Below, in pieces: positions 462-61,392 of a DNA stretch of 64,000 nucleotides. Both the position numbers and the translations under genes were made by a program. The notes under the pieces are model-generated. The model was not told the origin of the DNA, made no database searches, and saw only the letters and a list, made by a program, of their open reading frames with translations. Each line of letters opens with the position of its first letter. Within the stretch, counting starts at the first letter, position 1. Origin of the DNA: Flavobacterium phycosphaerae (lineage in GTDB: Bacteria > Bacteroidota > Bacteroidia > Flavobacteriales > Flavobacteriaceae). The stretch is from the NCBI RefSeq assembly GCF_010119235.1, contig NZ_JAAATZ010000001.1:526501-590500 (forward strand), given 5' to 3'.

Positions 462-1070
462 TTATTTTTCTTTTCCTCTCAAACCAGTAACCAAACTAAA
501 GCTATTGATTTTCTGATCCTGCAAAATATCCATTACTTTTTTGATTATAGGATACTCTTCTTTAGCATCACCTTTAATTGCAAGCTGCAATTCTTTATCG
601 TGCAATTCAATATTTGCAATTCGAGCATTTTGTACCCAATCTGCTAATTGATTATCCAAAGAATCTTTAGGAATCCCAGGCTGTTGAACGTTCTTTCTGT
701 CTGCAGGTTTCATGTCAATGATTTGCTTAAGACTCTGAACCGGAACACCAAAACTTTCCATTATGGCAAATTTGTTTTGATCATCTTCAGAGAATTTAAG
801 ACCATATTTCTGACCCATTAATTCAAGGGTTCTTATACGAACATCTTTTCCTTTAACGTCAAAAAACACTTTTCCGTTACCAACAGTCAATGTAGCCAAA
901 TCTTTTTCGGGCAACTTAGTCTGCACAGTAGATGCTGGTGTATCAACCGGCATTACCTCAGGAACTTTAGCAGTAGCAGTCAAAATAAAGAACGTAAGCA
1001 AAAGGAATGCAACATCACACATCGCCGTCATATCGGTAGATGTTGACTTTTTTTTCATTTTTATTGCCAT
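462..1070 (-). CDS. exbD: ExbD/TolR-family biopolymer transport protein
   Basis: 202 residues. A short Lys-rich N-terminus precedes a single membrane helix, TDMTAMCDVAFLLLTFFILT, carrying the Asp conserved in ExbD and TolR. A periplasmic domain of about 160 residues follows, longer than E. coli ExbD (about 140 residues in total). By family it is the stator partner of the ExbB proton channel that energises outer-membrane transport. It lies 34 nt after exbB and 18 nt before a second ExbD, so the three genes are probably one transcript. The substrate system served cannot be read from the sequence. Confidence 0.92.
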   Translation of the reverse strand: MAIKMKKKSTSTDMTAMCDVAFLLLTFFILTATAKVPEVMPVDTPASTVQTKLPEKDLATLTVGNGKVFFDVKGKDVRIRTLELMGQKYGLKFSEDDQNKFAIMESFGVPVQSLKQIIDMKPADRKNVQQPGIPKDSLDNQLADWVQNARIANIELHDKELQLAIKGDAKEEYPIIKKVMDILQDQKINSFSLVTGLRGKEK

Positions 1071-1104
1071 TGTTATACTTTTTTATTGATAAATGAATAT
1101 CAAA

Positions 1105-1926
1105 TTATTGTTTTAAGCTACCTCTAAAATGTCTGTAAGTATTAACGATAGTAGTACCTGCCTCATCAATTGAATAAGTCAATGTATCGATTTTAGATGT
1201 AAAGAAGTTGTACATGATAATTGCTAAAGCAGAAGTCGAGATACCAGTTGCAGTATTAATCAATGCCTCAGAAATACCGTTTGCTAGTTCCGCAGAATCT
1301 GCTCCACCACCACCAGCTAATCCGGCGAAAGCTTTAATCATCCCTGTTACCGTTCCTAACAATCCTGCTAAAGTTCCTAAAGAAACCAAAGTTGACAAAA
1401 TAGTCATGTGCTGCTCTAACATTGGCATTTCTAATGAAGTAGCTTCTTCAATTTCTTTGTGAATTGTTTCTGAAGCTTCTTCGCTATTAAATCCTTCTTT
1501 TTTAACATCTTGGTATTTTACTAACGCTGAACGGATAGCATTCGCTACTGAACCTTGTTGTTTGTCACAAGCTGTAATAGCTTCTTCTATGTGACCGCCT
1601 TTGATACTGGCTTGAACATTTTTCATAAACGCATCTAAATTACCTTTACCAGTAGCTTTAGTTATTACAAAATATCTTTCAAATGAGAAAACAACCACCA
1701 TTAATAATAACCCCATCAAAACTGGTACAATTGGCCCTCCTTTGTAGACCATTGCCAGATAATTTCCTTTTAGTGGCGCTCCTGTATTTACTCCACCTTC
1801 AAAATTTGATCCAGCACCCATAATAAAGTTCCATACAAGTACTCCGATTAAAATACATACTACAATCACAATTCCAGAGAACATTCCCCCTAAGTTTGAA
1901 CCACTTTCTTTTTTAACGTTTGCCAT
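1105..1926 (-). CDS. exbB: MotA/TolQ/ExbB proton channel family protein
   Basis: 273 residues. An extra N-terminal membrane segment (about residues 15-37, GIVIVVCILIGVLVWNFIMG) comes before the usual three ExbB helices. The second half carries the family core, LEQHMTILSTLVSLGTLAGL, then LGTVTGMIKAF and a Gly-rich turn, and ends with a helix around TATGISTSALAIIMYNFF. ExbB forms the pentameric inner-membrane channel around the ExbD helices. It is first in the operon with two ExbD genes downstream. A TAAATTTG box on the minus strand at 1991-1998 could be its -7 element. Confidence 0.93.
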   Translation of the reverse strand: MANVKKESGSNLGGMFSGIVIVVCILIGVLVWNFIMGAGSNFEGGVNTGAPLKGNYLAMVYKGGPIVPVLMGLLLMVVVFSFERYFVITKATGKGNLDAFMKNVQASIKGGHIEEAITACDKQQGSVANAIRSALVKYQDVKKEGFNSEEASETIHKEIEEATSLEMPMLEQHMTILSTLVSLGTLAGLLGTVTGMIKAFAGLAGGGGADSAELANGISEALINTATGISTSALAIIMYNFFTSKIDTLTYSIDEAGTTIVNTYRHFRGSLKQ

Positions 1927-1990
1927 TTTTTTAAAATTTTAATTTTTAGATAATTTATAAGTTTTAGTTGTTAATAAACTTGATTGGTAG

Positions 1991-1998
1991 CAAATTTA
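1991..1998 (-). promoter_or_regulatory. Candidate -7 box for the exbB operon
   Basis: On the minus strand this reads TAAATTTG, an exact match to the Bacteroidota -7 consensus TAnnTTTG, 65 nt upstream of the exbB ATG. I do not see a well-spaced -33 TTTG, so the call is tentative. Confidence 0.35.
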
Positions 1999-2229
1999 AT
2001 TTTTTACTTCAAATAAAAAAACTTTTTTTAGATTTAATACCCAATGCCTCAATCTCAATTGAATTAAGCAGTTTCGACATTTTTAACAATCAATAAACTT
2101 TACTTAAAAATACTGCTTATTTTCACTGTTTTACTAAGCATTTATATGTATAACGGGAAAAGCCTTGAAAATGTATTTATGACACAAAAGTTTTTTAACA
2201 AAGTTAAATATACCTCTTTTTACATCGGA

Positions 2230-2260
2230 TTGAAAAACAATTAACATTTGTTTATTTTTG
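2230..2260 (+). promoter_or_regulatory. Candidate promoter for the DUF486-cupin pair
   Basis: TTG at 2230-2232 and TATTTTTG at 2253-2260, separated by 20 nt, fit the Bacteroidota primary sigma pattern. The ATG at 2290 lies 30 nt downstream of the -7 box. Confidence 0.5.
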
Positions 2261-2289
2261 AAGAAACAATTTCTTAACACCAAAAGCGA

Positions 2290-2658
2290 ATGAAAGGCTA
2301 CCTCACCATCAGTTTATTGATTTTATCTAACATCTTTATGACACTAGCCTGGTATGGCCATTTAAAATTTAAAGAACTCAAGTGGTTTGAAAATGCCGGT
2401 TTGATTACCATCGTGTTAATTAGTTGGGGATTGGCCTTTTTTGAATATTGTTTTCAGGTTCCTGCTAATAAAATAGGGTATGAAGGCAACGGCGGCCCTT
2501 TTTCTTTATTACAACTCAAAGTAATTCAGGAAGTGATTACATTGGTGATTTTTGTGGTTTTCTCCCTTTTATTTTTTAAAAACGAAACCCTGCGCTGGAA
2601 TCACATTGTTGGCTTTTTATTACTGATATTTGCTGTATATTTTATATTTAAAAAATAA
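2290..2658 (+). CDS. DMT-superfamily DUF486 membrane protein
   Basis: 122 residues and four predicted membrane helices: residues 4-24, 37-54, 78-97 and 104-120. The sequence matches the DUF486 family, small four-helix proteins related to drug/metabolite transporters, through MTLAWYGHLKF, FFEYCFQVPANKIG, and LLQLKVIQEVITL followed by VFVVFSLLFF. The transported compound is unknown for the family. The next gene starts 5 nt after its stop, so the two are probably co-transcribed. Confidence 0.85.
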   Translation: MKGYLTISLLILSNIFMTLAWYGHLKFKELKWFENAGLITIVLISWGLAFFEYCFQVPANKIGYEGNGGPFSLLQLKVIQEVITLVIFVVFSLLFFKNETLRWNHIVGFLLLIFAVYFIFKK

Positions 2659-2663
2659 TCATC

Positions 2664-3026
2664 ATGAAAAAGTACTTTATCCAAAAAAGCCCGTTTGTGG
2701 TTCCCACGACTGATGGCAAACTTATCGAAGAACACTACGGCAATGCTACAACCAATAATGCTGAGATTTCCATTGCACACATGATAGCACCACCTAAATG
2801 GGCTGAACCGTTTCAAACACCCGAGTTTGACGAATATACTTATATCATTTCGGGCAAAAAACAATTTATCATTGAAGGTGAAGTAGTCGTTTTAGAAGCG
2901 GGGCAATCCATCAAAATTAAAAAAAACACCCGAGTGCAATATTCCAATCCGTTTGACGAACCATGCGAATACATTGCCATTTGCCAACCGGCTTTCGATT
3001 TTACTAAAGTGCACCGAGAAGAATAA
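2664..3026 (+). CDS. Cupin-domain protein
   Basis: 120 residues forming one cupin barrel: PEFDEYTYIISGKKQFIIEG, then VVLEAGQSIKIKKNTRVQY and a C-terminal strand CEYIAICQPAF. The motif 1 region has Glu where many cupins have paired His, so metal binding is uncertain. The enzymatic or sensory role cannot be told from the sequence. It lies 5 nt behind the DUF486 gene and ends at a bidirectional terminator. Confidence 0.75.
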   Translation: MKKYFIQKSPFVVPTTDGKLIEEHYGNATTNNAEISIAHMIAPPKWAEPFQTPEFDEYTYIISGKKQFIIEGEVVVLEAGQSIKIKKNTRVQYSNPFDEPCEYIAICQPAFDFTKVHREE

Positions 3027-3028
3027 AA

Positions 3029-3052
3029 AAAGTCCTGAATCATCAGGACTTT
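3029..3052. terminator. Bidirectional terminator between cupin gene and kmo
   Basis: Stem AAAGTCCTGA / TCAGGACTTT with a 4-nt loop ATCA. It has A and T runs on the two sides, so it can stop both converging genes. The kmo stop codon is at 3056-3058. Confidence 0.85.
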
Positions 3053-3055
3053 TTT

Positions 3056-4396
3056 TTATTTCAATAATGCTATGATTTTATTTTCTACTTCCTCACTGTT
3101 CCACTTTTCTTCGATGTTCTTCATTTGCATAACTTGTTCCATGATTTTGTTTTGCAAGTCACCAATGGCTAAGGCTTCCGAATAGGGTTGCAAACTGAAC
3201 GTTACCCTACTGTACAAAGGCTTCCATTTACCCGGATGCTTATCGGAAAACCATTTTTCGATTTTCTTTTGCAATAAAAAATTAGGATCCGCCGTCTTGG
3301 TACTCATTTCGATAAAATTACGAAGCGACAGTTCAGCAATGGCATCAGCATTAGGCTTGCGCGATTTTTGGTATTCACTGAAAATCATCTTCCAGTCATC
3401 ACCGTATTTTGACATCATTTGACTCAAAATAGTAATATCTTCAAAACCGGCATTCATTCCATGACCGTAAAAAGGCACTATGGCATGTGAAGCATCACCA
3501 ATCAAAGCTACTTTGTCTTCAAAGGTCCAAGGATAACATTTCATTATGGCCAAATAACTGGTTGGGTTTTTAAAGAAATCGCGAACCAAATCAGGTATAA
3601 CTTCTTTAGTATCAGGGAAATAATTTGCAAAGAAGGCTACCAAAGACGCTTCATCTTTTAATTGCTCAAATGAATTCTCGCCTTCAAACGGCATAAACAA
3701 AGTACAGGTAAAACTACCGTCCAGATTGGCCAAAGCCATCAGCATAAAATTACCACGCGGCCATATGTGCAAAGAATTTTTATCAATCTTGTGCGTTCCG
3801 TCAGTATTGGCAGGAATATGCAATTCTTTGTAGCCAATTTTCATAAACTCCTGCGAATAATCAAACATGCTTTGGCGTTGCATTCGGTGGCGGATTCTTG
3901 AAAAAGCACCATCGGCACCAAATACCTTATCATACTTCAGCTCTGTCCAAGCGCCATGTTCTGACTCACCAATATGCAATGTTGCATCGGCTAAAGTAAC
4001 ATCCCAAATTTTGTGATTAAAATAGAATTCGACTCCTTCCGCTTCTGCCAAATCAATCATTCTGCGATTTAAAACACCACGTGATAAAGAAAAAATAGCT
4101 TCTCCGTCTTTACCATAATATTGGTAATTGAGGTTTCCGTCTTGTAAATGAATCGCTCGCTTATCAACCGGGATACCAATCTTGCGAATTTCGTCATCCA
4201 GTCCCACATCTTCCATGGCTTTCCAACCTCGATTAGACATAACCAGGTTGATAGAACGACCCGAAAACTGTACGGTTCTGATATCCGGACTACGATCATA
4301 CACATGAACGGTGTGACCTTGTTTTTTTAAATAGATTGCCAACAATGTTCCGACTAAGCCCGAACCTACTATGGCAATTTTTTGAGGAGTTTGCAT
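3056..4396 (-). CDS. kmo: Kynurenine 3-monooxygenase
   Basis: 446 residues, the usual length. It hydroxylates L-kynurenine to 3-hydroxykynurenine using NADPH, O2 and FAD. An N-terminal dinucleotide fold IAIVGSGLVGTLLAIYL (residues 8-24) is followed by SGRSINLVMSNRGW (about 46-59). A second FAD motif, GDASHAIVPFYGHGMNAG, is the family fingerprint. With the kynureninase at 9844-11121 it points to tryptophan breakdown, or 3-hydroxyanthranilate and NAD synthesis. The two genes are separated by unrelated genes. The remaining pathway genes (dioxygenase, HAO) are not in the window. Confidence 0.93.
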   Translation of the reverse strand: MQTPQKIAIVGSGLVGTLLAIYLKKQGHTVHVYDRSPDIRTVQFSGRSINLVMSNRGWKAMEDVGLDDEIRKIGIPVDKRAIHLQDGNLNYQYYGKDGEAIFSLSRGVLNRRMIDLAEAEGVEFYFNHKIWDVTLADATLHIGESEHGAWTELKYDKVFGADGAFSRIRHRMQRQSMFDYSQEFMKIGYKELHIPANTDGTHKIDKNSLHIWPRGNFMLMALANLDGSFTCTLFMPFEGENSFEQLKDEASLVAFFANYFPDTKEVIPDLVRDFFKNPTSYLAIMKCYPWTFEDKVALIGDASHAIVPFYGHGMNAGFEDITILSQMMSKYGDDWKMIFSEYQKSRKPNADAIAELSLRNFIEMSTKTADPNFLLQKKIEKWFSDKHPGKWKPLYSRVTFSLQPYSEALAIGDLQNKIMEQVMQMKNIEEKWNSEEVENKIIALLK

Positions 4397-4482
4397 TTAT
4401 TTCTGGTAAACGGTTTGGCAAATTTAAGGGTTTGCACTGAATGAGGGAACGGATTTAGAATAATTATTTGCTATCACACTAT

Positions 4483-6867
4483 TTACTTTGGCGTAAAAAC
4501 TAACTTGGTGGAGGTGGCTTCAATTTCCTTTTTGTTGAGTTTCATTTTGCGAAATTTTCCATTGACAAACAATTCGGCTTGATCATTATAATGAGCACTC
4601 ATCGGATTCCCGGATTGACCCGTCGGCAAAACACTTAGGCTGTTTTCAATATCCGAGAAATCAATAATTCGTCGTGTTGACGGACCTCCTTTAACTCCAA
4701 TTTCGGCATCATCAGTATAAATAAACAGTTGGTTATTTATCACTTCATTGCTACCGGCTATAGGAAAGGTACCTACATTGAAAAAGCGGCTCAGTAATTT
4801 TACTTTACCTATCGGATGCTGAAATTCCACACGATGCACTTTTCCCCATTTCCAATTCCCGAGATCATTCCCCAGTTGCTTTTCGAGTGAGGCGACCGCT
4901 TCCTTAAATGATTGGGTTAGCACTTCGGTTTGCGTTTCTTTTTTGGTCTTCGTCTCGATATTATCCCACCAAGGTGAAGCCCCATTTTTAGTTTGATTTT
5001 CTATGACTTGTTTGATAATATGAGTACTCAATAGTAACTTGAAATTATCTTTTCCGAATTCATCTTCAAAGGTATCCCGCAAATAAAAGTAAAGCCATTT
5101 GTTGTAAATTGTTGGCGCTATCTCTTTCAGTCCGTTGGCTCCTTGCCAATCTTTTAACGTTTGTAATGCCTGTTTTTCATTGGCAGAAAAATTTACAGTA
5201 CTAACCGAAGCCGTCATATGACTTACAATGGTCTGAGCCGTTGCCGAAGTATTGTCCACTATCATTTTGCTCACGTCTTCTTTAGTCCAATTATTTTTAG
5301 GCTGGAGTAAATTATCTATACGCATGGCTCTGTCTTTGGGCAAATAATATCCCGGATACAAATAACCATCAATCGCTTCGGGTTGATTGTTGGCCGTATA
5401 AACGTAATGCCACGGCGGATTGATAGCGGAAGGGTTTTTAGCAAAAGGCAGGAATTCTTTCTTATCATCTATCCCATTGGCACCGTTAAGAATAAAATTG
5501 GTATTGACACTTTTATCCACTTTATACAACTTGCCCGAAGTTATCCAAGCTATATTACCTATAGCATCACCATACATAATATTGAGTCCGGGAGCTTTGA
5601 TGAGTTCAATGTTTTTATGAAAATAAGCTAAATCTTTGGCATGTGACAATTGATAAACAGCATTCAGTATTTGGTTTTTTTGTTCCAAAAGTGTCCACGT
5701 CATAGCTATGTTTTTTTTGGAAGACAAACCCTCTAACAATCCTGTAACAACGGGGCCATGCTGACTGGTTTTTACATTCAGTTTCACATTGGCACTGTCT
5801 TTTACTTTGATGATTTTCTGCTTATAGGTGTAGTTTTTATATCCTTCGAGTGTTTTGTATTGCTTGTCATTGTTAGGATTGTCTTCTTCTTGAAAGAAAT
5901 CGACATCATCGTTTTCAAACATTGTCAAGCCATAAGCATACTCTCTATTATGTCCCAAGAGTGGAAATGGCGTTCCGGCAATATAATACCCATACATTTC
6001 ATAATTTGGACAAACTATGTGAGCCTCATACCAAGTCCCCGGTTGCGAATACATAATGTGCGGATCATTGGCCAAAATAACTTGACCGCTTTTAGTTTTA
6101 GCCCCACCAATAACCCAACTATTACTTCCGACAAAAGCTGGCACCGGAGAGGCTTCGAGCATAGTGGTTAGCGATTGAGCGATTTTGCTGTACTCAAGAT
6201 AGTTACCTTTATACGATTTTAATTGTTTGGTTCCGAATTCCCCATTAATACCAAAATCATTGAGATACTTCATCCCAAAACGGTCGCGAATGTCGGTTAG
6301 CAACGGATCGGTTTTTTGTGCCATAGCAAAACTGAAAGACATAAATCCGAAGATGTTATAGACATCTTTCAACGTAAATTTTTCAGGTTTAATACCTAAT
6401 AATCTAAACTCAACCGGAGTCACACCGGCTTCCATATATTGGTTGATTCCGTCAAGATAGGCATTTGCCAAAATATAGGTAGGTGAGTTTTTATCTAACT
6501 GCGCCACAGCTTTAGCAGAGTTTTCATCAATCCCAATGCCGGCAAAAAATTTATCCGTTTTTAAAACCGGATTCCCAAAAATTTCAGAAAGCCTTCCCGG
6601 TGCTATGCGACGCATGAGTTCCATTTGCCATAAGCGGTCTTGTGCATGAACATATCCCAAAGCAGTCATAGCATCTTTTTGATTGGCGGCATAAATATGA
6701 GGCACGCCAAATTCATCAAAATATACGGTGGTTTCCTTGGTGATGTTTTTTAATGACTGTTGTCCTTCATAGCTGGGTTTGGTATATTGCAAATAGCCAA
6801 AAACAAACAGCACGAGCAACACAATCAGCGTCAAAACAATCAGGAAAAATTTCTTTACTAGTTTCAT
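4483..6867 (-). CDS. Penicillin acylase family protein (Ntn hydrolase)
   Basis: 794 residues. An N-terminal signal anchor (residues 5-27) is followed by an alpha-like part and then GSNSW (residues 247-251). The Ser at 248 is the expected self-cleavage and nucleophile residue of penicillin acylase and acyl-homoserine-lactone acylases. NDPH lies shortly after, as in the family. Such enzymes cut amide bonds of acylated small molecules; the substrate cannot be inferred, and the family name does not imply antibiotic resistance. It is probably periplasmic and single-standing, 86 nt before kmo. Confidence 0.88.
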   Translation of the reverse strand: MKLVKKFFLIVLTLIVLLVLFVFGYLQYTKPSYEGQQSLKNITKETTVYFDEFGVPHIYAANQKDAMTALGYVHAQDRLWQMELMRRIAPGRLSEIFGNPVLKTDKFFAGIGIDENSAKAVAQLDKNSPTYILANAYLDGINQYMEAGVTPVEFRLLGIKPEKFTLKDVYNIFGFMSFSFAMAQKTDPLLTDIRDRFGMKYLNDFGINGEFGTKQLKSYKGNYLEYSKIAQSLTTMLEASPVPAFVGSNSWVIGGAKTKSGQVILANDPHIMYSQPGTWYEAHIVCPNYEMYGYYIAGTPFPLLGHNREYAYGLTMFENDDVDFFQEEDNPNNDKQYKTLEGYKNYTYKQKIIKVKDSANVKLNVKTSQHGPVVTGLLEGLSSKKNIAMTWTLLEQKNQILNAVYQLSHAKDLAYFHKNIELIKAPGLNIMYGDAIGNIAWITSGKLYKVDKSVNTNFILNGANGIDDKKEFLPFAKNPSAINPPWHYVYTANNQPEAIDGYLYPGYYLPKDRAMRIDNLLQPKNNWTKEDVSKMIVDNTSATAQTIVSHMTASVSTVNFSANEKQALQTLKDWQGANGLKEIAPTIYNKWLYFYLRDTFEDEFGKDNFKLLLSTHIIKQVIENQTKNGASPWWDNIETKTKKETQTEVLTQSFKEAVASLEKQLGNDLGNWKWGKVHRVEFQHPIGKVKLLSRFFNVGTFPIAGSNEVINNQLFIYTDDAEIGVKGGPSTRRIIDFSDIENSLSVLPTGQSGNPMSAHYNDQAELFVNGKFRKMKLNKKEIEATSTKLVFTPK

Positions 6868-7014
6868 GGGAAATGGATTTACACAAATGTAAATAATTAT
6901 AAGTTAGGAGATATAAGTTGCAAGCCGGATTGATTTATTTCTTAGTTTAGCAACAGAAAGCCCCATGATTCCTATAAAACCTTCATCAGAATTCATGAAA
7001 AACAACAGTAAATT

Positions 7015-7371
7015 ATGCTAATCAACATCAACCCGAAATTACCGATGCGCGACAAAAAAGCAACAAGGGAATTTTATATGACCCAATTAGGCTTTCAGGA
7101 ATTTGGCAGCGCTGACTATGATGGCTATCTGATGGTACAAAAAGATAGTATTCAAATTCACTTTTTTGAGTTTAAAGAACTCAATCCAAAAGAAAACTAC
7201 GGTCAAGTTTACATCAGAACCGATGATATTGAAAATTTGTACCAAACTTTACTGGATAATAAAACCCGTATTCATCCTAACGGACAATTAGAAGTAAAAC
7301 CCTGGGGACAAAAGGAGTTTTCCGTACTTGACCCTGATTATAATTTGCTCACTTTCGGGCAAAGTATTTAA
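7015..7371 (+). CDS. VOC-superfamily protein (glyoxalase/bleomycin-resistance fold)
   Basis: 118 residues. The paired beta-alpha-beta modules of the vicinal oxygen chelate fold are visible: an N-terminal KLPMRDKKATREFYMTQLGF and a C-terminal KPWGQKEFSVLDPDYNLLTF, the latter very like bleomycin-binding and fosfomycin-type proteins. Members bind or convert small ligands. An actual resistance role is only inferred from the fold. It lies 31 nt before chrA. Confidence 0.82.
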   Translation: MLININPKLPMRDKKATREFYMTQLGFQEFGSADYDGYLMVQKDSIQIHFFEFKELNPKENYGQVYIRTDDIENLYQTLLDNKTRIHPNGQLEVKPWGQKEFSVLDPDYNLLTFGQSI

Positions 7372-7402
7372 CACAATCAGCCTAGTCGCATTAAACTAAA
7401 AC

Positions 7403-8713
7403 ATGAAAAAACCCACTTTTCGAGAAGCTTTACAATTTTGGGTCAAACTGGGATTCATAAGTTTTGGAGGACCGGCTGGACAAATTGCGATAATGCACGA
7501 CTATTTGGTTGACAAAAAAAAGTGGATTAGCGATAGTAAATTTCTGCATGCTTTAAACTATTGCATGATTTTACCGGGTCCCGAAGCACAACAACTGGCA
7601 ACCTATATTGGCTGGATGCTCCACGGCAGTTGGGGTGGACTTGCCGCGGGTATTCTTTTTGTACTTCCGGCTATGGTATTGCTTCTCGGACTAAGTGCCA
7701 TTTATGTAACTTTTGGAAATATTCCTTGGATTTACGCCATGTTTGACGGATTAAAACCTGCTGTAATAGCCATTGTTATTTTAGCTCTAATCAAAATCGG
7801 GAAAAAATCGCTTTTGAGTCCGTTTCATTATTTTGTGGCGCTGATGGCTTTCGTTTGTATTTTCTTTATGAACATTCCGTTTCCGTTAATTATAATTGGA
7901 ACTATTATTTTAGCCGCCATAATGCGACAGTTTGTACCAACATTCTTTGCCAAAACCAATACCTCAGCCACACAAAATCAAACCGATGAAAAAGAGTTTT
8001 ACATTAATAAAGATACAGTTGTCCCAAACATCGGGTTTAAGCCAAAGCGTTTTTGGAAACAAGTAGGTCTTAGCTTTTTTCTTTGGACCATGCCGCTGAT
8101 TGCCTTTTACTTTCTGACCAGTGACTTTCTTTTTTGGAAAAAATTAATAATCTTCTTTACACAAGCCGCCTTTGTAACCTTCGGAGGAGCCTATGCGGTC
8201 TTGCCTTACGTGGCGCAGGTTAGTGTAGCAAAATTTAACTGGCTGACCAATTCACAAATGCTCGATGGGTTGGCACTTGGCGAAACCACTCCCGGACCGC
8301 TAATTATGGTATTAGCCTTTGTTGGTTTTATGGCCGGGCATAATCATTTTGGTAATTCTCTTGCCATGGGAGCACTCGGACTGGTAACCACTACCTTCTA
8401 TACTTTTCTTCCCTGCTTCTTTTTTATTTTTGTGGGTGCACCCATCATTGAACGAACTCAGGAAAACAAAAAAATAAAAGAAATTCTGGCTTTGGTGACA
8501 GCCGCTGTAGTGGGTGTTGTACTCAATTTGACAATATACTTGGGTAAATCTGTACTTTTTCCATCCGATATTTCACTAATATCAATTGATTACATAGCAC
8601 TAAGCTGGACGGTAGTTTCCTTTATAGCACTTTACCGATACAAAGTAAACATGATACCTTGGATTGGCATTAGTGCTGTTTTCGGGCTTATCAATTATAT
8701 GATACTACATTAA
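7403..8713 (+). CDS. chrA: Chromate transporter, two-domain ChrA
   Basis: 436 residues with two homologous CHR halves, the long bidomain form. The first half carries FWVKLGFISFGGPAGQIAIM, and the second carries AAFVTFGGAYAVLPYVAQ with GLALGETTPGPLIMVLAFVG. About ten membrane segments are visible. Characterised members export chromate with proton exchange; some relatives act on sulfate. There is no ChrB regulator or other metal gene nearby, so the real substrate is uncertain. Confidence 0.9.
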   Translation: MKKPTFREALQFWVKLGFISFGGPAGQIAIMHDYLVDKKKWISDSKFLHALNYCMILPGPEAQQLATYIGWMLHGSWGGLAAGILFVLPAMVLLLGLSAIYVTFGNIPWIYAMFDGLKPAVIAIVILALIKIGKKSLLSPFHYFVALMAFVCIFFMNIPFPLIIIGTIILAAIMRQFVPTFFAKTNTSATQNQTDEKEFYINKDTVVPNIGFKPKRFWKQVGLSFFLWTMPLIAFYFLTSDFLFWKKLIIFFTQAAFVTFGGAYAVLPYVAQVSVAKFNWLTNSQMLDGLALGETTPGPLIMVLAFVGFMAGHNHFGNSLAMGALGLVTTTFYTFLPCFFFIFVGAPIIERTQENKKIKEILALVTAAVVGVVLNLTIYLGKSVLFPSDISLISIDYIALSWTVVSFIALYRYKVNMIPWIGISAVFGLINYMILH

Positions 8714-11165: not shown

Positions 11166-11244
11166 GTACAAATGTGGCGTAAAAGTAAAAAAAAGGGAAA
11201 AGAAAAAAGGGAAAAGAGAAAAGTTTTAATCCTAAAGATTGTAT

Positions 11245-11311
11245 TTAGCCCTGATGGGAGCGGCACCGAAGTAGAGCGGACAGCAGGAATAGGATTTAAA
11301 GAATGCCCGAT
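11245..11311 (+). repeat. Interspersed repeat, copy A
   Basis: Starts TTTAGCCCTGATGGGAGCGG, contains GAGCGGACAGCAGGAATAGG, and ends near GAATGCCCGATAG. It shares these blocks with 30084-30156 and 34903-34981, and more weakly with 61222-61316. It lies between kynU and the queA terminator. Confidence 0.6.
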
Positions 11312-35236: not shown

Positions 35237-36337
35237 TTAGAGCCAAACGGCTTCTTTGATTTTAATTTTTTCGGCGATTTTGAGAATATCAGTCAAAACG
35301 CCACGAGCGGTAACTTGTTTCCCTGCGCCAGCTCCCTGGATGACAATTGGGATTTCGCCATAGGATTTGGTGTAAATTTCAATCAGGTTATCGGCGCCTT
35401 TGAGTTGACCCAATGCGGAACTTTTTGGAACTGAAATCAGTTTGACTTCCAATTCTTTTTTGATCACATCAAATTCACCTACATAACGCAAAACATGGTT
35501 TTCGGCTTGCGTGATTTTGGCAATTTGAAACGGTTTGTCAAAAAGCAATTTATTTACTGAATATTCTGCTTTGGTATTCTTTTCATTCAGATTGGGAAGC
35601 AAAAGGGTTTCTATTTTTATACCTGAAAACTCAAACTCTTGCTCTATTTCGCGAGCCAGAATCAATAATTTTCGGGCCACATCGTTTCCGGATAAATCTT
35701 CTCGGGAGTCGGGCTCCGTGTATCCTTTCTTCTCCGCATCGGCAAGAATAGTAGAAAACGGAATGTCTTCGGAAGAAAATCGATTAAAAATATAACTCAG
35801 CGAGCCGGAGAATACGCCTCGAATTTTGGTGATTTCTTCACCCGAAAAGTGTAAGTCGTTGATGGTTTGGACTACTGGTAAACCGGCACCTACATTGGTT
35901 TCATACAGAAAGGATTTGTCAAATTTTTTGAGGTTCCTTCGGAGTTCTTTGTAGAAGTCGATGTGCTGAGTATTTGCTTTTTTGTTGGCAGCAACTATAT
36001 CGAACCCGTTTTGAATGAGTGGGATATAGCTTTTAATCAATTCGGAACTGGCGGTGGCATCCACAGCAATCAGGTTTTCCAATTGTTGCTCTTGAACGTA
36101 TTCAATGATGTCATCGATTCGGAATGGAATAGCTGATTGGGCGAAGTTGGCTTCCCATTTGTTTTTGACGCCCTCTTTTTCAAAAAAAGCCAAAGTGGAA
36201 TTGGTGATGATGGGAAAACGCAGCTCAATATTTCTTTTTTTAAGAAAGAATTGTTGGCTTTCGATTACCTGATTGATTAAAGTGCTTCCGACATTTCCGA
36301 TGCCGAAAAGGATGACATTGACTCTAAGCGCTGACAT
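35237..36337 (-). CDS. hom: Homoserine dehydrogenase
   Basis: 366 residues, monofunctional with no aspartate kinase part. NAD(P) fold VILFGIGNVGSTLI, then DATASSELIKSY, VAANKKANTQ, and the catalytic region GVFSGSLSYIFN with GYTEPDSREDLSGNDVARKL. A C-terminal ACT domain is not evident. It makes homoserine for methionine and threonine. Its ATG overlaps the end of metX by 14 nt. Confidence 0.93.
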   Translation of the reverse strand: MSALRVNVILFGIGNVGSTLINQVIESQQFFLKKRNIELRFPIITNSTLAFFEKEGVKNKWEANFAQSAIPFRIDDIIEYVQEQQLENLIAVDATASSELIKSYIPLIQNGFDIVAANKKANTQHIDFYKELRRNLKKFDKSFLYETNVGAGLPVVQTINDLHFSGEEITKIRGVFSGSLSYIFNRFSSEDIPFSTILADAEKKGYTEPDSREDLSGNDVARKLLILAREIEQEFEFSGIKIETLLLPNLNEKNTKAEYSVNKLLFDKPFQIAKITQAENHVLRYVGEFDVIKKELEVKLISVPKSSALGQLKGADNLIEIYTKSYGEIPIVIQGAGAGKQVTARGVLTDILKIAEKIKIKEAVWL

Positions 36338-37325
36338 AATTATGTTGATTTTGTTTGTTAAAAATAGGTTCTAAAATTTGAGCTAGCTGTTCGAATTCTA
36401 TCAAAAAAGCATCGTGTCCGTGGATGGATTGGATTTCGTGATAAAAGACATTTTCTTTTACGGTTTGCAATTGCCGGTGCGTTTCGCGGTTTTCCTCGGG
36501 AATAAAAAAATAATCCGTGTCAACAGCCACCACATGAATATGAGCTTGGATTGTTTGGGCAACAGTCAAAAATTCTTTTCGGTTACGAGTGATGTCATTT
36601 GTTTTCAGTAAATGATTCATCAATTTATAAGCCGATAAACGAAAGCGGTTTTTGAGTTTGAACCCATGAGTAATCAGCCAATTTTCGATTTGAAAGATGG
36701 ACAAGTTGTTGAACTTATTCCTTTGAAACCGTTGGTTGATGGATTGTGGTGTTCGGTACAAAAGCATTGCATGCAATCGGGCATCAGCAATCGGATCGTC
36801 AGAATTGTTGAGAATTTGGTCTTGAATCAACACATTGGCAATGACCCAATCGGTGGCTTTCCAATCGGTGGCGATGGGAATTAAATGCTCGATTTTGTTG
36901 GGTTGTAAAACAGCCATTTCCCAGGCTACGGCTCCGCCCAAACTCCCTCCTATTACAGCAAAAACTTTTTTGATGTTTAAAAACTGCAGGCCTTCCCAAA
37001 AAATTCGCGCTACATCTCGAATGGTAAAATCCTGATAATTGGAAATTAAATTCCCAAAATTATTATCATATCCATTTCCCGGAATATTAAAGGCTATAAC
37101 GGTAAAGTAAGTAGTGTCGATGATTTTATGGTCACCTATCAAATCATTCCACCAGCCGTTTTCTCCGGTCACCGTGGAGTTTCCGGTTAAAGCATGATTT
37201 ACCACCACCACCGGAGCTGTGCCGATGGGCTTCCCAAAAGTTTGATAAAACAACGAAAGATAAGGACGTTGCTTCCCGTTTTCTAAATCAAAAGTAAACA
37301 GGTCTATTTTTTCTAAATTTTTCAT
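36324..37325 (-). CDS. metX: Homoserine O-acetyltransferase (MetX family)
   Basis: 333 residues from the ATG at 37323-37325. An in-frame ATG 20 codons upstream would add a tail encoded by a hairpin (about 37337-37376) and is less likely. Alpha/beta hydrolase: VVNHALTGNS, the nucleophile elbow GGSLGGAVAWEMAVL, a late catalytic Asp near VAVDTDYFF, and His in HGHDAFLIEF. It activates homoserine for MetY. Succinyl versus acetyl preference cannot be read with certainty. Confidence 0.92.
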   Translation of the reverse strand: MKNLEKIDLFTFDLENGKQRPYLSLFYQTFGKPIGTAPVVVVNHALTGNSTVTGENGWWNDLIGDHKIIDTTYFTVIAFNIPGNGYDNNFGNLISNYQDFTIRDVARIFWEGLQFLNIKKVFAVIGGSLGGAVAWEMAVLQPNKIEHLIPIATDWKATDWVIANVLIQDQILNNSDDPIADARLHAMLLYRTPQSINQRFQRNKFNNLSIFQIENWLITHGFKLKNRFRLSAYKLMNHLLKTNDITRNRKEFLTVAQTIQAHIHVVAVDTDYFFIPEENRETHRQLQTVKENVFYHEIQSIHGHDAFLIEFEQLAQILEPIFNKQNQHNYVSA

Positions 37326-37414
37326 TTTTATTTTTTTTAAAAGACTGCCTCCAACCTTGAAACTGCAGACAGTCTTAGCAAACAAAACCTAACCTATAGT
37401 TTTATTTTTCAGTA

Positions 37415-37873
37415 TTAGGCGACTGCTGAGGATTCATATTCCTTGAACAACACTACGGAAACCGGAGTTGGATTGGCCAAATTATCCTGAACCGGACAGC
37501 GATTTTCAACAGCGATTAACCAATCTTTTAATTGCTCTAAAGTAGCATCGGATGTTGGTTTAACTACTACTTCAACCGATTTGAAACCCGCTCTTTCATA
37601 GCTGATTTTCCCCTGATACTTATCTAAACTTAGGGTTCCTGAAATTTCTATTTGAAGTGATTTTAAAACAATACCCTGTTCTTTAGCTACCAATTCCCCA
37701 ACAGCATTAATGCAACCGGCATAACCTGCCAGAATTTATTCTATCGGACTGGGGCCTTCCAGTTCCGGGAATTGTTCGTTTTTACTGATTCGGATATCGA
37801 AGCTTTGGGCTTTAACTACGAACTGATTATTGTCTTTAACGTAACCTAATACGGTTACTGTTTTTGTGCTCAT
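37415..37873 (-). pseudogene. OsmC-family protein with an in-frame stop
   Basis: The ATG is at 37871-37873 and the frame is 153 codons, a normal OsmC length, but codon 46 is TAA (37736-37738). It interrupts ...GPSPIE*ILAGYAGCIN. Tyr (TAT or TAC) would be expected there, so one base change explains it. The rest is intact: the Cys motif AGYAGC, then ENRCPVQDNLANPTPVSV with the second Cys. It lies 3 nt after metY inside the methionine operon. It could be a genuine nonsense mutation, a sequencing error, or an open frame restored by readthrough. Confidence 0.85.
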
Positions 37874-37876
37874 GAT

Positions 37877-39169
37877 TTATACGGTTTGTGGGGATTTAAT
37901 GGTAGTGAATACCGCTTGTAAATCGGCTTTCAAATCGTCGATGTTTTCTAAACCAACTGACAAACGAATCAGGTCTTTGGTTACTCCGGCCGCTTCTTGT
38001 TCGGCATCAGACAACTGTTGATGGGTGGTACTGGCGGGATGGATGATTAACGATTTAGTGTCACCGATGTTGGCTAACAGTGAAAATAATTTGGTGTTGT
38101 CAGCTACTTTCTTAGCAGCTTCGAATCCTCCTTTTAATCCGAATGTTACGATACCGCTTTTGCCTTCCGGTAAATATTCATCGGCTAAAGTTTTGTATTC
38201 TGAAGTTGCCAATCCCGGATAATTTACCCAGGCAACCTGCTCCTGTTTTTCTAACCATTGCGCTAAATCCAAAGCATTTTCGCTGTGTTTTTTGATTCGA
38301 ATTTCCAAAGTCTCTAACCCTTGAATGGTTTGAAACGCGTTGAACGGACTTAATGCCGCACCGAAATCACGCAATCCTTCAATTCTCACTTTGGCAATGA
38401 AAGAAGCCGCGCCCAGAGCTTCATAGTATTTCAGTCCGTGATATCCCGCTGATGGTTCTGTGAATTCCGGGAATTTACCGTTGCTCCAATCAAAGTTCCC
38501 GGCATCGATGATGACACCGCCCAGCGACGTTCCGTTTCCGGAAATGTACTTGGTTAACGAGTGAATTACAATGTCGGCTCCATGCTGAATTGGGTTTAGC
38601 AAAAAAGGAGTTGCAACGGTATTATCAACAATGAAAGGCACTTTGAATCCTTTTGCTTCTGCGGAAATGGCTTTCAAATCGAGTACATCCAACTTTGGAT
38701 TTCCAAGGCTTTCGACAAAGAAGGCTCTGGTGTTTTCCTGTGCGGCTTTGGTAAAGTTTTCCGGATTTGATGGATCAACGAAAGTGGTCGTAATCCCTAA
38801 TCTTGGTAAAGTTACTTTCAGCAAATTGTAAGTTCCTCCGTAAAGACTGTTTGAAGCTACGATGTGGTCACCCGATTTTAGTAAAACCAATAATGCGGTG
38901 GCGATGGCTGACGTTCCTGAAGCGGTCACTACAGCTCCGATTCCACCTTCCAAGGCGGCTAAGCGTTGTTCCAAAATGTCGTTAGTTGGATTGTTCAATC
39001 GAGTGTAAATGAATCCTGCTTCGGCCAAACCAAAAAGATTAGCGGCATGGTCTGAATTGTTGAATACATACGAAGTGGTTTGGTAAATCGGAACGGCTCT
39101 GGTTCCTGCATTTTTAGTAACGTCGTGTCCTGCGTGCAACGCGTTGGTTGCAAATTTTTGTGTGCTCAT
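37877..39169 (-). CDS. metY: O-acetylhomoserine aminocarboxypropyltransferase (sulfhydrylase)
   Basis: 430 residues, Cys/Met metabolism PLP family. ALHAGHDVTKNAGTRAVPIY at the N-terminus, SLYGGTYNLLKVTLPRLGI, VDNTVATPFLLNPI and the PLP Lys in IVIHSLTKYISGNGT. The length and ALSPFNAFQTIQGLETLEIR are those of MetY rather than MetB or MetC. It makes homocysteine from O-acetylhomoserine and sulfide. It is the first structural gene after a Met-rich leader ORF and terminator. Confidence 0.94.
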   Translation of the reverse strand: MSTQKFATNALHAGHDVTKNAGTRAVPIYQTTSYVFNNSDHAANLFGLAEAGFIYTRLNNPTNDILEQRLAALEGGIGAVVTASGTSAIATALLVLLKSGDHIVASNSLYGGTYNLLKVTLPRLGITTTFVDPSNPENFTKAAQENTRAFFVESLGNPKLDVLDLKAISAEAKGFKVPFIVDNTVATPFLLNPIQHGADIVIHSLTKYISGNGTSLGGVIIDAGNFDWSNGKFPEFTEPSAGYHGLKYYEALGAASFIAKVRIEGLRDFGAALSPFNAFQTIQGLETLEIRIKKHSENALDLAQWLEKQEQVAWVNYPGLATSEYKTLADEYLPEGKSGIVTFGLKGGFEAAKKVADNTKLFSLLANIGDTKSLIIHPASTTHQQLSDAEQEAAGVTKDLIRLSVGLENIDDLKADLQAVFTTIKSPQTV

Positions 39170-39231
39170 GGTGTTTAAATTTAAATGTTAGTATGAATAA
39201 TTTTAAGTGTTTACGAATGTTTGGGCATAAA

Positions 39232-39265
39232 AAAGTCCCTTTGGATGGCTTACCAAAAGGACTTT
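39232..39265 (-). terminator. Attenuator terminator before metY
   Basis: A 13-bp stem AAAGTCCTTTTGG / CCAAAGGGACTTT (one G-U on the minus strand), loop TAAGCCAT, then six T. It lies between the Met-rich leader stop (39288) and the metY ATG (39169). Its 5' arm segment CTTTTGG (39253-39259) can pair with CCAAAAG (39300-39306) near the end of the leader ORF. Confidence 0.85.
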
Positions 39266-39287
39266 AAGAATTGAGCAATAACTACGA

Positions 39288-39386
39288 TTACGTCTTCCGC
39301 TTTTGGTTATAGGATATGGTGATGCAACACATCATCATGTGCATCATCGTGCGGTTCATCATCATATTTTTTACTGCTAGGCTCAT
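39288..39386 (-). CDS. Methionine leader peptide (attenuator), metY operon
   Basis: A 32-codon ORF. Residues 7-21 read NMMMNRTMMHMMMCC: eight Met and two Cys codons in fifteen, nine Met overall. The stop TAA is at 39288-39290, 22 nt before the terminator's 5' arm. The antiterminator strand CCAAAAG lies about six codons before the stop. Charged tRNA-Met (and perhaps tRNA-Cys) shortage should stall ribosomes and allow metY-osmC-metX-hom transcription. Translation has not been shown. Confidence 0.87.
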   Translation of the reverse strand: MSLAVKNMMMNRTMMHMMMCCITISYNQKRKT

Positions 39387-39434
39387 TATTTTGTTTTTAT
39401 TTTATTGCTTTTAGAATTTTATTTTTATTGCGGA

Positions 39435-40058
39435 TTACTTCAGTTTGTCAAAAATATATCCTGCCTTTTTTGCCCCCCAAACCTGTTTTCCCTCTTTGTC
39501 AAATCCTTGATCCCAAGACAGAATCTGATTTTCCAGAACGGTAACTTTGGACGTGGCGTAATTAGCCCCTCTCAATTCACTAGAACATGTTTTAATTCCG
39601 GTTTGTCCGGTAAATTTATTTTTACCAAGACGTTTCAACACCACTTCACATCCTTTTTTTTGTTCGATATCATTTTCCGTTAGGGCATCAAAAGTTTCCG
39701 GCGTATTCCATTTACCAATCCAATCTTTTTCGTTTTTCAAAGTATAGATTTCGCTAATAAACTCATCTCCATTTTGAACCAATTTGTAAATTCTTACTCT
39801 GTATGGCTTGTCTTGTTTTTTGAAAATAGCTTGTTCAACATACAAATAGTGCCCTTTATTTTTCCAGATGGGAACCATACGAAGCGAAATGTTGAAATAC
39901 GTGGTATCAGTTACTGATTGTTTTTCCGAAGAATAATGACCTTGCATGATAGTTACCAATTCATTTAAATATTTTTCGCTTTTGCTCTTTTTGGATTGTG
40001 CATTGCTTGTAAAGAAGCTGAACGAAATAAGTAGCAGTAAAAGGATGTTTTTTTTCAT
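39435..40058 (-). CDS. CpcT/CpeT-like secreted protein
   Basis: 207 residues with signal peptide MKKNILLLLLISFSFFTSNAQ. The mature part resembles the CpcT/CpeT family, first known as chromophore lyases of cyanobacterial phycobiliproteins: LVTIMQGHYSSEKQS, RMVPIWKNKGHYLYVEQAIF, YRVRIYKLVQ, and GCEVVLKRLGKNKFTGQT. This is no phototroph, so the ligand here is unknown. The gene has its own Met/Cys-rich leader and terminator upstream, and the metY leader begins 49 nt after its stop, so it sits in a methionine-linked regulatory context. Confidence 0.8.
   Translation of the reverse strand: MKKNILLLLLISFSFFTSNAQSKKSKSEKYLNELVTIMQGHYSSEKQSVTDTTYFNISLRMVPIWKNKGHYLYVEQAIFKKQDKPYRVRIYKLVQNGDEFISEIYTLKNEKDWIGKWNTPETFDALTENDIEQKKGCEVVLKRLGKNKFTGQTGIKTCSSELRGANYATSKVTVLENQILSWDQGFDKEGKQVWGAKKAGYIFDKLK
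39449..39481 (-). promoter_or_regulatory. Candidate promoter of the metY leader transcript
   Basis: On the minus strand TTTG (39478-39481) and TATTTTTG (39449-39456), 21 nt apart, lie in the last codons of the CpcT-like gene, about 60 nt before the Met-rich leader ORF. If real, the metY unit has its own start as well as possible readthrough. Confidence 0.45.
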
Positions 40059-40104
40059 TTTGATTTGTTGTTTTAAGTTTATTGGTTTTTGCTTTAAATA
40101 AAAA

Positions 40105-40128
40105 AACCTCTGCGTTTTGGCAGAGGTT
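40105..40128 (-). terminator. Attenuator terminator before the CpcT-like gene
   Basis: A 9-bp stem AACCTCTGC / GCAGAGGTT, loop CAAAAC, then T-rich on the minus strand. It lies between the Met/Cys-rich leader ORF and the CpcT-like ATG at 40058. CTCTGC of its 5' arm (40120-40125) can pair with GCAGAG at 40173-40178 in the leader ORF. Confidence 0.82.
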
Positions 40129-40157
40129 CGATTGTATCTATTTTAAAAAATTTAAAA

Positions 40158-40226
40158 TTATGCAATAGTGTGCTCTGCGGAATCTTCCGACATCATACGA
40201 CACATATGGCACATTGTAAATTTCAT
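40158..40226 (-). CDS. Met/Cys-rich leader peptide before the CpcT-like gene
   Basis: A 22-codon ORF starting MKFTMCHMCRMMSED: five Met and two Cys codons within the first twelve. The stop TAA is at 40158-40160, 30 nt before the terminator stem. The design matches the metY leader: codon run, then an antiterminator strand (GCAGAG, codons 17-18), then a terminator. Expression has not been shown. Confidence 0.8.
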   Translation of the reverse strand: MKFTMCHMCRMMSEDSAEHTIA

Positions 40227-40386
40227 TTTTTGTTGTTATTGGATGAAGCAAACTTCTGAATGTTTTTTGAATTGACCAAACGAAATTTGAAAAATTAACA
40301 TTTGAAGTTTGTTTATATATATTTAAATACTACGTATTTAGAATTTTGAATGAATCATAAAAAAAATAAAAAAAGTAAAATTGTTT

Positions 40387-40416
40387 TTTGTATTCTAAAT
40401 AGTCTTTATACATTTG
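40387..40416 (+). promoter_or_regulatory. metK promoter
   Basis: TTTG at 40387-40390 and TACATTTG at 40409-40416, 18 nt apart, fit the Bacteroidota consensus exactly. Transcription would start near 40422, so the SAM-II-like aptamer begins almost at the 5' end of the RNA. Confidence 0.7.
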
Positions 40417-40428
40417 CAACCGAAAAAT

Positions 40429-40480
40429 GAGAGGAAAAATTTGAACTGATTGCAACCTCGTTAAAAAATGCTAAAGCAGA
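40429..40480 (+). promoter_or_regulatory. SAM-II-like riboswitch upstream of metK
   Basis: The pattern of a SAM-II pseudoknot is visible: P1 GAGG (40431-40434) / CCTC (40456-40459), loop TTGAACTGATTGCAA, an A-rich linker GTTAAAAAA, then TGCTAAAGCAG, which can pair back to the loop. GCTAAAG can instead pair with CTTTAGC downstream (about 40489-40495), a possible switch. By function SAM binding would lower metK expression. A covariance-model score is needed to confirm it. Confidence 0.72.
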
Positions 40481-40552
40481 AACTCTCCTTTAGCTTTACC
40501 GGCAATTTTCAGTTTTTCTTCATTACAATTAATATTAAATTAAACTATAATT

Positions 40553-41803
40553 ATGGCTTATTTATTTACGTCGGAGTCAGTTAGTGAAGGACATCCAGAC
40601 AAAGTTGCAGACCAAATTTCAGATGCGTTAATTGACAATTTCTTAGCCTTTGACCCTGAGTCAAAAGTAGCTTGCGAAACCTTGGTAACAACGGGTCAGG
40701 TAATTTTGGCCGGCGAAGTAAAATCGAATACCTATCTTGATGTGCAGCAAATTGCCAGAGAAGTAATCCGTAAAATCGGATATACTAAAAGCGAATACAT
40801 GTTTGAAGCTGATTCGTGTGGTGTTTTATCTGCCATTCATGAGCAATCAGCTGATATCAATCAAGGAGTTGACAGAGCCAGCAAAGAAGAGCAAGGAGCC
40901 GGTGACCAAGGAATGATGTTTGGGTATGCTACCAATGAAACTGAAAACTACATGCCATTAGCTTTAGATTTATCTCATGCGTTATTGATTGAATTGGCTA
41001 ACTTAAGAAGAGAAAACAACGAAATTAAATACTTACGCCCTGATGCTAAATCTCAGGTGACTTTAGAGTATTCTGATGACAACAAACCGGTAAGAATTGA
41101 TGCCATTGTAATTTCAACACAACATGATGATTTTGCTGCAGAAGCTGAAATGTTGGCTAAAATTAAAAGTGATTTGATTTCGATTTTGATTCCGAGAATT
41201 AAAGCCAAATATCCTCAATACGCCCATTTATTCAATAACGATATTACGTATCATATAAACCCAACCGGAAAATTCGTAATCGGCGGTCCTCACGGAGACA
41301 CCGGATTAACAGGAAGAAAAATCATCGTTGATACGTATGGCGGAAAAGGAGCTCACGGGGGTGGTGCTTTCTCAGGAAAAGACCCATCAAAAGTAGATCG
41401 TTCAGCGGCTTATGCAACCCGTCACATTGCTAAAAACTTAGTAGCTGCCGGATTGTGTGATGAAGTTTTGGTACAAGTTTCTTATGCGATTGGAGTGGCA
41501 AAACCAACTTCTATCAATGTGGTTACTTACGGAACTTCTAAAGTAAATTTAACCGACGGTGAAATCAGTAAAGTGGTTGAGAATGTATTTGATATGAGGC
41601 CTTACTTTATTGAGCAACGTTTGAAATTGAGAAACCCAATCTACAGCGAAACCGCAGCTTACGGACACATGGGACGTAAACCGGAAACGGTTACTAAAAC
41701 TTTCCAATTGCCAAATGGCGCTCCGAAAACAGTATCGGTAGAGTTATTTACTTGGGAGAAATTAGACTTCGTTGACAAAGTAAAAGCAGCTTTTGGATTA
41801 TAA
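40553..41803 (+). CDS. metK: S-adenosylmethionine synthetase
   Basis: 416 residues. It makes SAM from methionine and [49 protein letters not shown], and [20 protein letters not shown] are all intact, with ATP, Mg and K sites. It is transcribed divergently from the methionine operons and preceded by a SAM-II-like aptamer, so it is probably repressed by its own product. Confidence 0.98.
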
Positions 41804-61165: not shown

Positions 61166-61221
61166 TTTTTTTTATCCTTTCCATTTTTAGAAGCGAAAAG
61201 TTTTTGTTACTTTGCAGTCCA

Positions 61222-61316
61222 TTTTCCTGCTGTACGTTCCAATCTTTTCTGCATTTCCCTTTCGCTATCGCTACAGGGCAATCCAAAAAAGGATTTACAC
61301 TGCCATCAGGGCTAAT
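61222..61316 (-). repeat. Interspersed repeat, copy D (long, divergent)
   Basis: On the minus strand: TTAGCCCTGATGGCAGTG at one end and CGTACAGCAGGAAAA at the other, matching the end blocks of copies A-C, with a different middle. It lies upstream of the DUF151 gene. Confidence 0.5.
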
Positions 61317-61392
61317 GAGGATTTGTATTGCATAGTTGCTATCGTTTTGAATACAGAAACTGGAGTAACTGAATCTAACATTAAAAACCATA

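Follow-up and report, generated by a model that had tools for sequence, protein, structure and literature searches.

Two putative Met/Cys leader-peptide attenuators in series before the metY operon of Flavobacterium phycosphaerae

What controls the metY-osmC-metX-hom operon of Flavobacterium phycosphaerae? Bacterial methionine control usually runs through a SAM riboswitch, a Met T-box or a repressor. Leader-peptide attenuation is a classical mechanism, on which comparative work was reportedly done by Vitreschak in 2004, and its use for Met/Cys control of methionine synthesis has rarely been proposed, as far as we have seen. A first-pass annotation of the window (the whole stretch of 64,000 nt analyzed here) placed a methionine leader peptide attenuator directly before metY. 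Attenuation by a leader peptide is supported by relatives, by covariation and by geometry, but the reported unit is the second of two in series; the upstream one, leader 1 with its terminator T1, had been overlooked, as had a SAM-II aptamer before metK. Methionine as the sensed residue stands in part, since the Met run is kept in relatives, but the codons enriched across them are Met and Cys, not Met alone. From the sequence, it is very likely that two ribosome-mediated transcription attenuators precede the operon in series, where they would sense Met-tRNA and probably Cys-tRNA.

On the minus strand, the order in the direction of transcription is a promoter-like site, leader 1, T1, a CpeT-family gene, leader 2, T2, metY, osmC, metX and hom (Table 1). 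Domain matches agree with the operon as first named, with the MetX-like product under the TIGR01392 cut-off and the other three over theirs. The SAM aptamer attributed to the neighboring metH is indeed there, as a SAM-I.

Table 1. Features of the metY region, in window coordinates
Feature	Position	Strand	Detail	Basis
Promoter-like site before leader 1	40249..40279	-	TTG 40279-40277, 20 nt, GAAGTTTG 40256-40249	Consensus match only
Leader ORF 1	40158..40226	-	MKFTMCHMCRMMSEDSAEHTIA + stop	Met/Cys count; model R1
Antiterminator strand of leader 1, within the ORF	40173..40180	-	CCGCAGAG	Covariation with T1 5′ arm, 30 loci
Terminator T1 + T run	40100..40128	-		Sequence; script's detector; 99.6% of A3 cells paired
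CpeT/CpcT-family gene between both leaders	39435..40058	-		PF06206, 155 bits
Promoter-like site before leader 2, within 3′ end of CpeT-family gene	39449..39480	-	TTG 39480-39478, 21 nt, TATTTTTG 39456-39449	Consensus match only
Leader ORF 2 (reported earlier)	39288..39386	-	32 codons + stop	Met/Cys count; model R2
Antiterminator strand of leader 2, within the last codons	39300..39307	-	ACCAAAAG	Pairing with CTTTTGGT of T2; staged folding; loop covariation
Terminator T2 + T run	39229..39265	-		Sequence; script's detector
metY, O-acetylhomoserine sulfhydrylase	37877..39169	-		TIGR01326, 640 bits, over cut-off
OsmC-like gene	37415..37693	-		PF02566, 33 bits, over cut-off
metX-like gene (homoserine acyltransferase family)	36324..37385	-		TIGR01392, 181 bits, under curated cut-off of 500
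hom, homoserine dehydrogenase	35237..36337	-		PF00742, 161 bits, over cut-off
SAM-I aptamer before metH	35131-35026	-		Rfam
SAM-II aptamer before divergent metK	40425-40484	+		Rfam

Leader ORF 2 encodes MSLAVKNMMMNRTMMHMMMCCITISYNQKRKT (39386-39288) and holds, as first described, eight Met and two Cys within a 15-codon stretch of its 32 codons. After the start, 10 of 31 residues are Met or Cys (binomial P 1.7e-9; the background, 16 window genes, has Met at 1.6% and Cys at 0.8%). It ranks first by Met/Cys count (10; next 6) among the 384 ATG ORFs of 15 to 45 aa in the window. In 300 dinucleotide shuffles of 38400-40600, which gave 6,405 ORFs of that length, five ORFs had at least 7 Met/Cys; the largest count was 7, and none had 10. 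The search of its own genome with model R2 returned a single match, leader 2 (E 1.1e-18).

The 13-bp terminator claimed between leader 2 and metY is present by sequence. T2 joins AAAGTCCTTTTGG (39265-39253) to CCAAAGGGACTTT (39244-39232) over an 8-nt loop, with 13 pairs, one of them G-U; its T run reaches 39229, and the metY ATG lies at 39169. Three of its six T's are within the stem and only three come after it. T2 is absent from the list of a generic terminator scan, outside whose range T1 lies, but our script's detector did find T2. The pairing proposed between the ORF end and the terminator, ACCAAAAG with CTTTTGGT, comes to 8 bp, one more than claimed.

Leader 1 has six Met or Cys among its 21 residues after the start (P 7.5e-6), the highest Met/Cys fraction among the four window ORFs of 15 to 45 aa that have six. 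Model R1, built from relatives plus the window copy, gave one convincing match in its own genome, which is leader 1 (E 2e-23; next, 5e-4). Weak matches there at L113, L116 and L118 resemble ordinary terminators that lack a Met/Cys ORF and were rejected.

Across related genomes, the strands of the proposed pairing between ORF end and terminator covary, and they do so across genera. In the alignment of leader 1 from 30 loci (A3), the terminator has 99.6% of its cells paired and 33 double-change cells, the antiterminator 86.5% and 18; the rows of L002 and L049 are one column off at the antiterminator. Covariation was above all 500 shuffles (0.432 vs 0.166 and 0.287 vs 0.126), the shuffles ignoring relatedness, and pair-type counts showed no excess over shuffles. 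The core of leader 1 co-changes at three places, reading GCAGAG/CTCTGC/GCAGAG, GCAGCG/CGCTGC/GCAGCG or GCAAGGG/CCCTTGC/GCAAGGG. Its antiterminator is short, the seventh pair being missing in 16 of 29 loci.

The leader-2 antiterminator can extend into bases of the terminator loop. We counted this in 57 distinct cases out of 78 rows, L061 and L096 having been dropped for want of a CC anchor. Pairing with the ORF is seen for the first loop base in a fraction of 0.93, vs 0.75 when permuted (0 of 2,000), bases 2-3 are without excess (0.825 vs 0.827), and bases 4-6 pair at 0.36 vs 0.29 (2 of 2,000). For the 19 cases from outside Flavobacterium, the figures are 0.84 vs 0.77 for the first base (373 of 2,000) and 0.67 vs 0.57 for bases 4-6 (4 of 2,000). 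In L005, L022, L063 and L108, the first loop base is also able to extend the terminator, so the antiterminator is tested more cleanly by bases 4-6. Pairing of the ORF end with the 5′ arm plus loop was more stable than the mean of dinucleotide shuffles in all 65 leader-1 units and in 79 of 80 leader-2 units.

The spacing of these elements is suited to control by a ribosome, the front edge of which lies about 12 nt past the A site. In the 62 of 65 leader-1 ORFs that were measurable, the last Met codon starts 14 to 18 nt (median 15) before the antiterminator strand, and that strand starts a median of 18 nt (6 to 24) before the stop; the same two distances have medians of 23 (14 to 36) and 7 (-8 to 17) nt in 68 of 80 leader-2 ORFs. 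Therefore, stalling would keep the antiterminator strand accessible, and a ribosome that has reached the stop would cover it. In staged folding with a stalled ribosome and the polymerase just past the loop, the probability of the antiterminator is 0.96 for leader 2 and 1.00 for leader 1. When the 3′ arm is present as well, the terminator dominates whichever state the ribosome is in (P 0.96). Since the finished terminator wins at equilibrium, the choice between the two structures would have to be kinetic.

We envision that, with ample charged Met-tRNA and probably also Cys-tRNA, the ribosome would move on to the leader stop and cover the antiterminator strand, so that the terminator could fold and transcription would end. 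At low charging, the ribosome would stall within the Met/Cys run, and the strand just ahead of it would stay free to pair with the 5′ arm of the terminator before the 3′ arm is made, letting the polymerase read through; in leader 2, this pairing would also take in loop bases. Two serial gates should lower leakage and steepen the response. Leader translation, stalling, termination in the cell, the nature of the signal and the passage of one transcript through both gates are all features that we infer from the DNA.

The leader-1 ORFs suggest what might be sensed. We counted codons in 65 distinct ORFs, of which 41 are 22 codons long. In those 41, Met/Cys makes up 47% of codons 2-13 and 1.4% of codons 14-22. 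ORF length, frame and stop are kept, and Met and Cys exchange for one another, as at codon 9 (Cys in 27, Met in 6) and codon 10 (Cys in 18, Met in 10); TGT and TGC are both used for Cys. A different pattern holds in the second part. The GCAG core is present in 55 ORFs; GCA is a codon in 36 of them (S-A-E type), the other 19 use another frame (P-Q-R type), and the alignment of the window with L002 has offsetting one-base differences on either side of the core. Thus, with the frame of the core shifting while the RNA is unchanged, and with the start rich in Met/Cys, the first part appears to be kept as codons and the second as RNA. One RNA in two frames separates codon selection from RNA selection within 22 codons. 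Codon 13 is Trp in 27 of the 41 ORFs and Ser in the window.

Units of this kind are found before other operons as well. Order-wide, R1 matched 30 of 196 genomes at an E of 1e-4 or below. Four loci outside the family were inspected, and three are leader-like: L270, from another family, has two Cys-rich short ORFs with terminators, from about 540, before cysH-cysD; L271 is leader-like before metX and L272 before metY. The fourth, L276 (G560), is not leader-like. In L266 (G493, 473-7900), a leader-1 unit precedes cysE-cysK-SUMT-cysJ-cysI-siroheme synthase, which is followed by leaders 1 and 2, metY, osmC and metX. In L121 (G143), metX is preceded by a leader-1 unit and a SAM-I riboswitch in tandem (1501-1626 and 1272-1371, minus strand). 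Seven leaders upstream of metX share this architecture but have few Met/Cys residues (L265, L267, L268, L269, L273, L274 and L275); L267 also has an ORF of about 950 aa, receptor-like by eye, where the window has the CpeT-family gene.

At the genus level, we sampled 130 of 140 metY hits, about one genome per genus. SAM-I only was called at 96 of these loci and leaders only at 16; none had both, and 18 had neither. SAM-I was called by sequence pattern and Rfam, 86 of the 96 by the pattern only; Rfam, run on 40 loci, gave SAM-I in 5 of 5 pattern-positive loci and in 5 of 35 others. Pattern matches that fell on far-upstream SAM-II aptamers were removed by position and Rfam. Thus, metY appears to be SAM controlled in most genera of the family and aminoacyl-tRNA controlled in others, which offers a single operon for comparing two control logics. 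Taken together, it seems rather probable that Flavobacteriales control a sulfur-amino-acid regulon through a family of Met/Cys leader-peptide attenuators, which often come in pairs. These would occupy at metY the place that SAM-I has in other genera of the family, and would also stand at metX, at cysE-cysK-sulfite-reductase (L266) and at cysH-cysD (L270); the L121 arrangement would read tRNA charging and then SAM in turn.

The positions of these units bear on whether they sense cysteine, or general sulfur shortage, more than methionine, a reading to which we give an appreciable though minor chance. Cys codons are kept in leader 1 (codon 6 in 29 of 41, besides codon 9), and the units before the cys genes of L266 and L270 point the same way. 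The F. phycosphaerae genome also encodes a protein like cystathionine beta-synthase (496 bits; cut-off 510), and a search of it with the sulfite reductase of L266, run without a positive control, gave no match. Given these two results, homocysteine from MetY may also feed cysteine, which would suit a Met-plus-Cys sensor. The cysE model found nothing over cut-off in the same genome, its best match (L250) adjoining glycosyltransferase-like ORFs by eye. Against a mainly cysteine signal, however, Met is kept at codons 8, 11 and 12 of leader 1 (37, 37 and 38 of 41), leader 2 has eight Met vs two Cys, and the downstream genes make methionine.

Returning to sensors of both Met-tRNA and probably Cys-tRNA, we examined 1,200 nt at each of 80 metY loci from GTDB genomes, the closest ones by metY similarity and mostly labelled Flavobacterium. 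A leader was taken as an ATG ORF of 13-45 aa with at least 5 and at least 20% Met/Cys and a terminator within 130 nt. All 80 loci have such a leader with a terminator (leader 1 in 47, leader 2 in 71, both in 38), and on the opposite strand of these segments the same rule found leaders in none. L177, a candidate from a looser detector, is absent among the leaders of this stricter rule. The Met run is therefore kept in the closest relatives sharing metY, a metY-selected set; it should not be taken as genus-wide, because R2 matched 33 of 61 genomes in a genus sample and had no match in the other 28. R1, which is not anchored on metY, found 34 of 397 Flavobacteriaceae genomes below an E of 1e-6. 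Among the 30 best matches, taken as loci, 25 units stand before a metY more than 70% identical to that of the window, 1 before a 35% metY-like gene and 2 before metX; L141 ends 0.8 kb downstream, and in L124 a receptor-like ORF (by eye) follows.

Both attenuator units are complete in the window. A second alternative is that they form no double gate: metY would be controlled by leader 2, transcribed from a promoter of its own, and leader 1 would control the CpeT-family gene. The CpeT-family gene does lie between the two leaders. Moreover, the promoter-like match before leader 2, inside that gene, is perfect to TAnnTTTG, given as the promoter consensus of F. psychrophilum in the available text of PMC9723704, and could give leader 2 its own start; the GAAGTTTG site before leader 1 is imperfect, with 5 of 6 letters. 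Imperfect matches precede 20 of 63 leader-2 units (trimmed ORFs), all among L031-L071. We nevertheless regard separate control as unlikely, given that both leaders occur within 1,200 nt in 38 of the 80 loci, that in many of the closest relatives leader 1 is followed by leader 2 with no intervening gene, and that TTG-N17-22-TAnnTTTG-like matches precede 31 of 40 leader-1 units. In L034, leader 2 and metY are separated by a small ORF of some 58 aa, judged by eye. In L049, leader 1 is the only leader; the mini-ORF after it, MKIAIYNPRRCCRMCS (translated by eye), lacks a terminator and may be what is left of leader 2.

Alternatively, the region might act without being translated, as a new RNA aptamer for SAM or Met in which the ATG repeats serve a structural role; in favor of this, the leader folds more stably than its shuffles do (z -2.6), and SAM aptamers are nearby. 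We consider this very improbable. No Rfam riboswitch (SAM-I, SAM-II or other) or T-box reached gathering level before metY in 39150-40320, and at an E of up to 1 the leader region gave three weak matches only, all to unrelated families. The only conserved helix in alignment A1 is the terminator, and A2 adds one further helix of 4 bp; the kept ORF length and stop, the exchange of Met and Cys codons and the use of both Cys codons also argue against an aptamer and are indirect signs of translation. That the ORFs encode small working peptides, for instance metal-binding Met/Cys/His peptides (Met, Cys and His are metal ligands), is likewise very improbable, as the last third of the leader-1 peptide switches frame among relatives while the RNA is kept, the ORF ends pair with terminators, and Pfam and NCBIfam assign no family to either peptide.

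Two attenuators in series would share with those of the trp and his type a short ORF rich in the regulated amino acid, an intrinsic terminator, and an antiterminator exposed by a stalled ribosome and masked by a ribosome at the stop. They differ in that Met and Cys would be sensed, that two units stand in series, that the host belongs to Bacteroidota and that such a unit is found at metY, a position taken by SAM-I in most of the other genera sampled. The first-pass annotation had called the mechanism rare, which agrees with the literature that we searched: the sole published Met leader peptide that we found, in the text available of PMC8079986, is metL before metNIQ of Streptomyces lividans. 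As described there, metL is likewise a proposed Met-dependent leader peptide with Met and Cys codons, but it is a single unit before an import operon and has no typical Rho-independent terminator. Our literature search, in which subscription literature is thinly covered and some sources are represented by part of their text, found no Met leader peptide before metY or in Bacteroidota.

Other systems resemble the present one in part. The poly-Cys short ORFs before mycobacterial cys operons also carry Cys runs, but the available portion of PMC1262725 gives no conserved terminator hairpin and mentions no Met run, and PMC13236596, in the part available, describes translation attenuation; the former also reports the methionine operons of Actinobacteria to be without conserved upstream structure. 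In mgtM/mgtP of Salmonella mgtCBR, according to the accessible text of PMC3641672, two short ORFs in one leader are each an attenuator, but they answer to different signals (ATP and proline), whereas here both ORFs are rich in the same two residues. The doubled gate lends itself to the question of what is gained from a second attenuator of the same kind. The accessible sections of PMC2965389 state that before its Firmicutes case, leader-peptide systems were known only in Proteobacteria and Actinobacteria; leader-like short ORFs in Bacteroides appear in what is available of PMC7366714. Closer to hand, in the same genus, PMC9723704 reports "strong clues" for leader-peptide attenuation before amino-acid biosynthesis operons of Flavobacterium psychrophilum, with met or cys operons unnamed in the available main text. 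The system is directly testable in easily grown flavobacteria.

A few further observations may be recorded. Contigs labelled Candidatus Nitrotoga (L007) and Bifidobacterium breve (L012) bear a Flavobacterium-like metY with leaders, and these bins are probably contaminated. The window holds Flavo-1 RNAs at 61219-61317 (minus strand) and 11243-11294 (plus strand). The leaders, the SAM-II at metK and the SAM-I at metH place three kinds of sensor within about 6 kb.
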